A stretch of DNA of 64,000 nt from the NCBI GenBank assembly GCA_029258795.1, contig JAPDKB010000002.1:124001-188000 (forward strand), written 5' to 3'. Origin of the DNA: an archaeon (GTDB taxonomy: Archaea; EX4484-52; WAPT01). Under the pieces are notes generated by a model that had not been told where the DNA came from, ran no database searches, and saw nothing but the letters and a program-made list of their open reading frames with translations. Made by a program: the position numbers and the translations under genes. Shown here in pieces: positions 1 through 52,858 of this stretch (the stretch's first letter is position 1; each line of letters starts with the position of its first letter).

Positions 1-50
1 TCGTGTTTTCACGGTCCCGTAGCTCAGCTGGTTGGAGCGCCGGTCTTATA

Positions 51-97
51 TGACCGCGGGAGCTAAAAATAACGGCTGTTGCTCCCGTGTCTAGGCC
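51..97 (+). other. tRNA-Ile intron 1 (anticodon loop, 37/38)
   Basis: This 47-nt insert follows the purine 3' of the anticodon. It contains a strong helix, CGGGAGC (57-63) with GCTCCCG (81-87), and a shorter GAC/GTC helix (52-54/89-91) next to the exon junctions. That is roughly a bulge-helix-bulge arrangement for the archaeal splicing endonuclease, although the bulges look irregular. Confidence 0.75.
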
Positions 98-119
98 AGC
101 CGGAGGTCGGGGGTTCGAA

Positions 120-158
120 AGCCATCTAGAGAAACTGGAAAGAGAATATGGCAGAAAA
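120..158 (+). other. tRNA-Ile intron 2 (T loop, about 59/60)
   Basis: This 39-nt insert interrupts the T loop. GCCAT (121-125) pairs with ATGGC (148-152), closing the intron hairpin. Removing it restores TTCGAAT flanked by GGGGG and CCCCC. Introns at this non-canonical site are known mainly from crenarchaea and some DPANN-type genomes. Confidence 0.75.
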
Positions 159-213
159 TCCCCCCGGGACCATCCTTATTCTGCCCGCATTGATATCCTA
201 AGATTCTTAAAAT

Positions 214-16735: not shown

Positions 16736-17404
16736 ATGGAAATCTACTCCCTGATAAAAAACATTCTCTCAAACATATTTAAACGTAACAGAATCCCGCT
16801 TGAAATAAAACTCCTTGCCGTAACTTTATTCTTGCATGGTATGGGTGTGAGAAGGATAAGGAAAGTGGTTCAATCCTCCAAATCTTCAGTACACGAATGG
16901 ACCTTAAAGTTCAGGCAGGTTCTGAACTTTAAGGTGGAAAAGAAGAGAAGGAGATGCATAGCAATAGATGAAACCAAGCTGAGAGTGAATCAAGCATGGT
17001 ATTACATCCATGCTGCCATGGACGCGGAAACAAAAGAATTGATAGTGATGAAAGCATACACATCAAGAAATTACTTGAACACACTCGATTTCATAAAACG
17101 GGTTACGAGATTTTGCACAAACAGGGATTTTGAGATAATAACGGATAAGATGCCGTGTTATGAACAGGTATGCAGAAGGCTTGGAGTAAGGTGGAGACAT
17201 GAGACTTTTGGAAGGAGGAATTGTATTGAGCATGTGTTCAGATCATTCAAGTTTTTCACGATGAGGTTTAATCACTGTCTGTGCGTTGATTTACGTAAGG
17301 TGAGTTTGAGACTGGACAGGGATTACTGGTTTAAGAGGGTGCTGTATTTGCTTGAATTGTGGTGTGGAATGTTTATGTTTTATTGGAATGTTTTTAGGAG
17401 GTGA
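16736..17404 (+). CDS. DDE transposase, IS6-like
   Basis: 222 residues. An N-terminal helix-turn-helix region (LFLHGMGVRRIRKVVQSSKSSVHEW) precedes an RNase-H-like catalytic core. The DDE residues are visible in AIDETKLRVN (first Asp), ITDKMPCYEQV (second Asp, about 60 residues later) and RRNCIEHVFRSFK (Glu, about 34 residues further). Size and spacing resemble IS6/IS240-type archaeal transposases, though the terminal repeats differ from classic IS6 ends, so the family assignment is tentative. No frameshift is present and the gene looks functional. Confidence 0.85.
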   Translation: MEIYSLIKNILSNIFKRNRIPLEIKLLAVTLFLHGMGVRRIRKVVQSSKSSVHEWTLKFRQVLNFKVEKKRRRCIAIDETKLRVNQAWYYIHAAMDAETKELIVMKAYTSRNYLNTLDFIKRVTRFCTNRDFEIITDKMPCYEQVCRRLGVRWRHETFGRRNCIEHVFRSFKFFTMRFNHCLCVDLRKVSLRLDRDYWFKRVLYLLELWCGMFMFYWNVFRR

Positions 17405-52516: not shown

Positions 52517-52590
52517 TTAATACACCATTCTTCAATAGCTAATACCTCGGGATAGGGACTCAAACATTTATTTTGGTGCCGAGGGGGGGA

Positions 52591-52639
52591 TTTCCTGCCA
52601 CCAGAGCAGGAAGCGCGACGAAGCTTTGCTTCGGCGGCG
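52591..52639 (-). other. tRNA-Met intron 2 (T loop)
   Basis: A 49-nt insert in the T loop at the same place as in tRNA-Ile (after TTCGAA). It contains a GAAGC/GCTTC hairpin and a CCTGC...GCAGG hairpin near the 3' junction. Removing it restores the T arm. Confidence 0.75.
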
Positions 52640-52661
52640 TTCGAACCCCCGACCTCCAGAT

Positions 52662-52735
52662 TTCTCAGCGCCGTAACACAAAATCATCGCTTGCTCATTA
52701 CTCGGCAAACTCATCACTCATAAGCCAACACGGCT
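52662..52735 (-). other. tRNA-Met intron 1 (anticodon loop, 37/38)
   Basis: A 74-nt insert after the anticodon. The canonical position 37/38, with flanking stem CCAGA/TCTGG, supports it. It contains an internal repeat of a GATGAG/AATGAG motif and a CATAAGCCGTG...CGGC stem. Exact junctions are inferred. Confidence 0.7.
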
Positions 52736-52858
52736 TATGAGTCTGGCGCTCTAACCAGCTGAGCTACCTCGGCACCGAACAAAAGCGTGGCTCCGTAACA
52801 GAATTTTTATCCGGCAAAATTTTATAAAAATTCACACGGCAGCTTCACAAAAACCTTC

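Follow-up and report, generated by a model that had tools for sequence, protein, structure and literature searches.

A twice-interrupted tRNA-Ile(UAU) gene in an archaeal lineage without detectable TiaS, and a candidate intron element around the anticodon in its relatives

Archaeal tRNA-Ile genes with a UAU anticodon have been described as extremely rare: of 167 complete archaeal genomes, 2 had one (PMC6000648), and a set of 217 complete genomes gave these two species again (PMC8450103). Formation of Psi34 and Psi36 in the anticodon of yeast tRNA-Ile(UAU) depends on the intron of that tRNA, and a strain lacking the intron acquires ncm5U34 in their place (PMC9602550, PMC4090602). Archaeal Cbf5 is known to act guide-free on T-arm-like stem-loops (PMC6138745), its known guide-free targets including tRNA U55 and a T-arm-like 23S rRNA stem-loop (PMC6138745, PMC7912444), and in H/ACA RNAs the ANA box lies 14-16 nt from the pocket, or 13 nt in some (PMC4652768). 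The gene described here lies at the start of the window, by which we mean the whole 64,000-nucleotide stretch of archaeal DNA analysed.

Positions 13-172 of the window, on the + strand, are confirmed as a tRNA-Ile(UAU) gene, GGTCCCG...CGGGACCA, with a 47-nt intron 1 at site 37/38 and a 39-nt intron 2 at site 59/60. Its parts are as follows.

13-50 (+): exon 1, nt 1-37; acceptor 5' strand, D arm, 5' anticodon stem and loop nucleotides C32 U33 U34 A35 U36 A37
51-97 (+): intron 1, 47 nt; at the canonical position 37/38, with a complete bulge-helix-bulge (BHB); found in order mates
98-119 (+): exon 2, nt 38-59; 3' anticodon stem, variable loop, 5' T stem and UUCGAA
120-158 (+): intron 2, 39 nt; at 59/60 in the T loop, its BHB carrying a single G.A mismatch
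159-172 (+): exon 3, nt 60-73; CCA not encoded

Because of its two introns, the unspliced gene gives no match with ARAGORN or Rfam (RF00005, default thresholds), but excision of 51-97 and 120-158 yields a 74-nt cloverleaf, which ARAGORN identifies as tRNA-Ile(tat), with the UAU anticodon that an earlier note on this DNA had read from the letters. A splice register giving CAU is impossible, since the 5' exon ends CTTATA; the register is fixed by the BHB and places UAU in a 7-nt anticodon loop once spliced. In intron 1 the outer helix h is CCGGT/GCCGG, the bulges are U36 A37^U and CC^A38, the central helix H pairs nt 32-35 as CUUA/UAGG (4/4 pairs) and the inner helix h' is GAC/GUC, so that the anticodon intron has the two 3-nt bulges and 4-bp central helix expected of archaeal BHB introns. 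Intron 2 has h GGGGG/CCCCC, H UUCG/AGAA with 3/4 pairs (a G57.A mismatch) and h' GCCAU/AUGGC, with the predicted cut at 59/60. The precursor folds better than 200 of 200 shuffles (z -3.1), A73 is present, and by eye the tRNA body is strongly similar to the genome's own tRNA-Ile(GAU), which has no intron or other interruption at 37/38.

The gene is present in both genus mates, where its two introns occupy identical sites. The further claim of the earlier note, that this tRNA must be cut at two separate places, is supported. Intron sequence has diverged in these mates, and the inner helix is kept and extended (h' GCCAGCC/GGCUGGC). Across the order, exon 1 is conserved and a UAU pattern search gives matches in 17 of 34 genomes. 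Two of these lie inside a ribosomal-protein gene and are not tRNAs; the other 15 genomes have a UAU gene with the canonical 37/38 intron, as far as sequence reaches (one locus is incomplete).

A TiaS gene together with a tRNA-Ile2(CAU) had been named in the earlier note as the finding that would speak against its reading. The TiaS domain PF08489 is absent at E<=1 from the source genome (a 1.17-Mb draft, 96.3% complete) and from 33 order mates (0/34), with 4/4 archaeal controls positive. A pattern search of the same draft genome for CAU tRNAs, which would miss a CAU Ile tRNA whose D arm is interrupted by an intron, finds an initiator and an elongator Met tRNA only and no tRNA-Ile2(CAU). AUA is nonetheless the commonest Ile codon, with ATA accounting for 310 of the 588 Ile codons in 18 open reading frames of the window, and must therefore be read efficiently. 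The precursor would be cut by the splicing endonuclease at the two BHB motifs (37/38 and 59/60) and then ligated; the resulting tRNA, presumably charged with isoleucine, would read AUA directly and replace the TiaS/agmatidine route that the lineage lacks. We consider this account of direct AUA reading by a two-intron tRNA-Ile(UAU) very probably correct. Avoidance of AUG by an unmodified-looking UAU anticodon is a standing problem: in work by Mandal in 2014, a UAU mutant of haloarchaeal tRNA-Ile reportedly binds AUG.

What counts against removal of both introns is the combination of a G57.A-mismatched T-loop BHB with a single-gene, alpha4-like endonuclease. Enzymes of the alpha4 class have narrow specificity, and the ability to cut relaxed BHB motifs is associated with enzymes that are heteromeric or of the epsilon2 type (PMC6379350). 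A single gene for a splicing endonuclease with both Pfam domains was found (locus L109, 196-786, 197 aa), in a search that a divergent second subunit could escape, and its product is closest to the Methanopyrus and Methanocaldococcus enzymes. It does have a KKG..S.REH loop in common with the broad-specificity Nanoarchaeum enzyme: KKGEKSPREH before the catalytic His resembles Nanoarchaeum KKGKRSEREH, and this loop is absent from Methanocaldococcus.

The T-loop intron is not peculiar to this gene. At least five other tRNAs of the genome have one at 59/60, and these share a common BHB arrangement, UUCR-AA^N ... UGRA-AA^U. The G.A in the central helix of intron 2 (3/4 pairs) is conserved, and intron 2 has its layout in common with other T-loop introns of the genome that pair 4/4. 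A further example lies within the window.

52577-52773 (-): elongator tRNA-Met(CAU); introns at 37/38 (52662-52735) and 59/60 (52591-52639); the only non-initiator CAU tRNA found

The T-loop intron of this tRNA-Met (52591-52639) is absent in a genus mate, and its exact excision yields the mate's uninterrupted T arm TTCGAATCCCCCC; it is a recent gain or loss. From this presence and absence, together with the five or more other introns at 59/60, it follows that the T-loop intron is recurrent and has recently been mobile in the lineage. Several smaller observations touch on these genes. Two of the other T-loop introns, L017 and L022, start nearly identically (TGCTGCGGAAGCA), which suggests copying between tRNA genes. 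The tRNA-Met gene itself is overlooked by ARAGORN; its 74-nt anticodon intron contains GTGATGA, GCGATGA and CTGA, which are box C/D-like, and a 10-nt stretch of it, GGCTTATGAG, is fully complementary to CTCATAAGCC, which spans the anticodon and the 5' splice site. Elsewhere in the window, a 222-aa open reading frame (16736-17404, +) resembles an IS6-type transposase by eye (DE..D-like, 'IDETKLRVN', 'HAAMDAETKELI').

The earlier note had also held, in line with the literature, that UAU is confined to a few lineages such as Nanoarchaeum and Korarchaeum, and this does not stand. A strict D-arm-to-anticodon pattern finds a UAU tRNA in 116 of 394 archaeal genomes sampled around the window's own genome, where a reversed control pattern gives 2. 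TiaS is found in 190 of the 394, and none of the 116 UAU genomes has it, an overlap of 0 with a Fisher p of about 1e-43 when shared ancestry is ignored. The other 88 genomes include true UAU genes overlooked by the strict pattern (G005, for example). The UAU set is dominated by small genomes, and we infer that UAU without TiaS is largely a DPANN pattern. Extreme rarity of the archaeal UAU tRNA, limited to two species, is thus not supported and is outdated: the UAU tRNA is a second solution to AUA decoding, found in roughly a third of the sampled archaeal genomes and never with TiaS.

The anticodon intron is kept in most of these genes. Among 116 UAU genes read, one is incomplete; an intron follows A37 in 94 of the remaining 115 and is missing from 21, five of the intronless genes having been assigned by eye. 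At least 3/4 central BHB pairs are present in 86 of 89 scored UAU introns. The tRNA-Ile(GAU) of UAU-positive genomes, by comparison, has an intron or other interruption at this place in 15 of 52 genes. A universal UAU intron, which the first 26 loci had led us to expect, is refuted by the rest. Intronless UAU tRNAs include two clusters, one with C38 in which Elp3 is kept and one (families f13 and f32) without Elp3.

Retention of the intron may have to do with a structure that it can form with the upstream exon. Pairing between intron nt 2-5 and nt 29-32 is seen in 41 of 47 families (mean of at least 3/4 pairs), and intron nt 7-13 are complementary to nt 20-26, the D-arm 3' strand. Both pairings together form a hairpin whose loop is U33 U34 A35 U36 A37 i1 (UUAUAN), with a mean energy of -11.1 kcal/mol against -5.7 +- 0.3 for shuffled introns and -9.05 +- 0.44 for introns swapped between families. 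Full 6/6 pairing of the lower stem occurs in 35 introns from 24 of 47 families, where 2.5% is expected. The intron base facing C25 is always G and that facing A23 always U, while the bases facing G24 and G22 are C or U. Nucleotide 21 and its intron partner alternate between G-C (18) and A-U (15), a switch by family that stays significant if the remaining positions alone serve as anchor (Fisher p 0.0016). In an ungapped alignment of 29 families, chosen partly for a visible motif and with stems shifted by one counted as unpaired, the covariation score is 0.262, compared with at most 0.155 in slid registers and with 0/500 shuffles reaching it.

Downstream of the hairpin, an ANA trinucleotide occupies intron nt 15-17; by family-weighted count it does so in 22.9 of 47 families, where the null value is 2.4 and the highest at any position in 1000 shuffles is 8.5. 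It is coupled to the lower stem, occurring in 20.8 of 31 families with the stem and not significantly in families without it. Because the motif was noticed in the same data before testing, the controls and the anchored test outweigh the raw counts. Among those controls, 17 GAU introns and 21 Tyr introns have no excess pairing, and ANA in 2/17 and 0/21 respectively. Folds of the UAU introns contain no internal-loop pocket and no K-turn or K-loop, which rules out the intron as an H/ACA guide proper. About half of the UAU lineages examined have in the intron a conserved element that folds around the anticodon, and this element may mark the anticodon for modification.

In the window's own gene the corresponding features are these.

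41-56 (+): alternative precursor hairpin; nt 28-32 CGGUC (41-45), loop UUAUAU (46-51), intron nt 2-6 GACCG (52-56); present in the minimum-free-energy fold
65-67 (+): AAA at intron nt 15-17, the ANA site of relatives; not significant for the window's genus alone

The window's genus keeps the upper stem CGGUC/GACCG and lacks the lower stem. Its intron is a divergent member of the class, with a clear match to the upper stem only: a hairpin followed by ANA at a fixed distance is found in the introns of relatives but not in this one.

It is possible, although we would stop short of calling it probable, that in many UAU lineages the 37/38 intron plays an active role in decoding: as a T-arm mimic it would recruit a Cbf5/TruB-type enzyme with a PUA domain, which would pseudouridylate U34 before splicing and so let the tRNA read AUA and not AUG. 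Hairpin and ANA are supported by the sequences, through the folding energy, the complete lower stem in half of the families, the covariation, the coupling of ANA to the stem, and the lack of both features in GAU and Tyr introns; the enzyme and its product we infer. In a T loop, U55 is the second loop nucleotide, A58 follows at a set position, and nt 61-73 lead to the CCA. U34 is likewise the second nucleotide of the precursor loop, A37 is placed like A58, and the 13 nt from loop to ANA equal the T loop-to-CCA spacing. The source genome does encode a Cbf5 with TruB and PUA domains. Against the proposal, the 21 of 115 UAU genes without the intron mean that it is not universally needed, the loop reads UUAUAN instead of UUCRANN, the hairpin is in competition with the BHB helix, and the window's own genus is without the lower stem.

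That competition is the basis of a second explanation, in which the alternative hairpin is a conformational switch that delays BHB formation and so times folding and splicing, with no relation to base modification. Intron nt 2-5 can indeed pair either with nt 29-32 or in the BHB helix h', but a switch of this kind leaves unexplained both the fixed ANA coupled to the lower stem and the absence of the element from GAU and Tyr introns, and we regard it as doubtful. It is improbable that the intron instead shields U34 from an Elp3-type modification for as long as the precursor is unspliced, as happens in yeast (PMC9602550), leaving lineages without Elp3 free to lose it, since the intronless cluster of f13 and f32 fits but a second intronless cluster retains Elp3 and intron loss has no significant link to Elp3 (13/87 intronless with Elp3, 8/28 without, p 0.16).

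If pseudouridylation of U34 by Cbf5 were true, it would be the archaeal counterpart of the intron-dependent anticodon modification of yeast, and the way in which archaea without TiaS decode AUA while not misreading AUG. As a possible mark for the wobble base, the conserved hairpin and ANA are a concrete candidate, and they would account for the frequent retention of the intron. For the window's own gene the case for Cbf5 and U34 is weak, because its genus keeps only the upper stem and a non-significant AAA.

Among described systems, the nearest are the tRNA-Ile(UAU) genes of Nanoarchaeum equitans and Korarchaeum cryptofilum, two archaea that likewise combine a UAU anticodon with the lack of tRNA-Ile2(CAU) (PMC8450103). 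An intron is present in the Korarchaeum gene too (PMC6000648); the gene described here adds a second, in the T loop. Multi-intron tRNAs of Thermoproteales and of the red alga Cyanidioschyzon merolae likewise have introns away from 37/38, and C. merolae tRNA-Ile(UAU) has introns in the D, anticodon and T arms (PMC9602550), but ours is a different lineage in which at least seven tRNAs share the single T-loop site 59/60. Yeast pre-tRNA-Ile(UAU) is again an AUA-reading UAU tRNA whose 37/38 intron matters for anticodon modification; there the enzyme is Pus1, whereas the archaeal candidate element, a D-arm hairpin with ANA, is of another kind. H/ACA guides and T-arm-like Cbf5 substrates, finally, share with it a hairpin and, a set distance behind it, an ANA box (13 nt in UAU introns), but the UAU intron has neither the pseudouridylation pocket nor the K-turn of a guide, and the putative target uridine is found within the same molecule, in its terminal loop.
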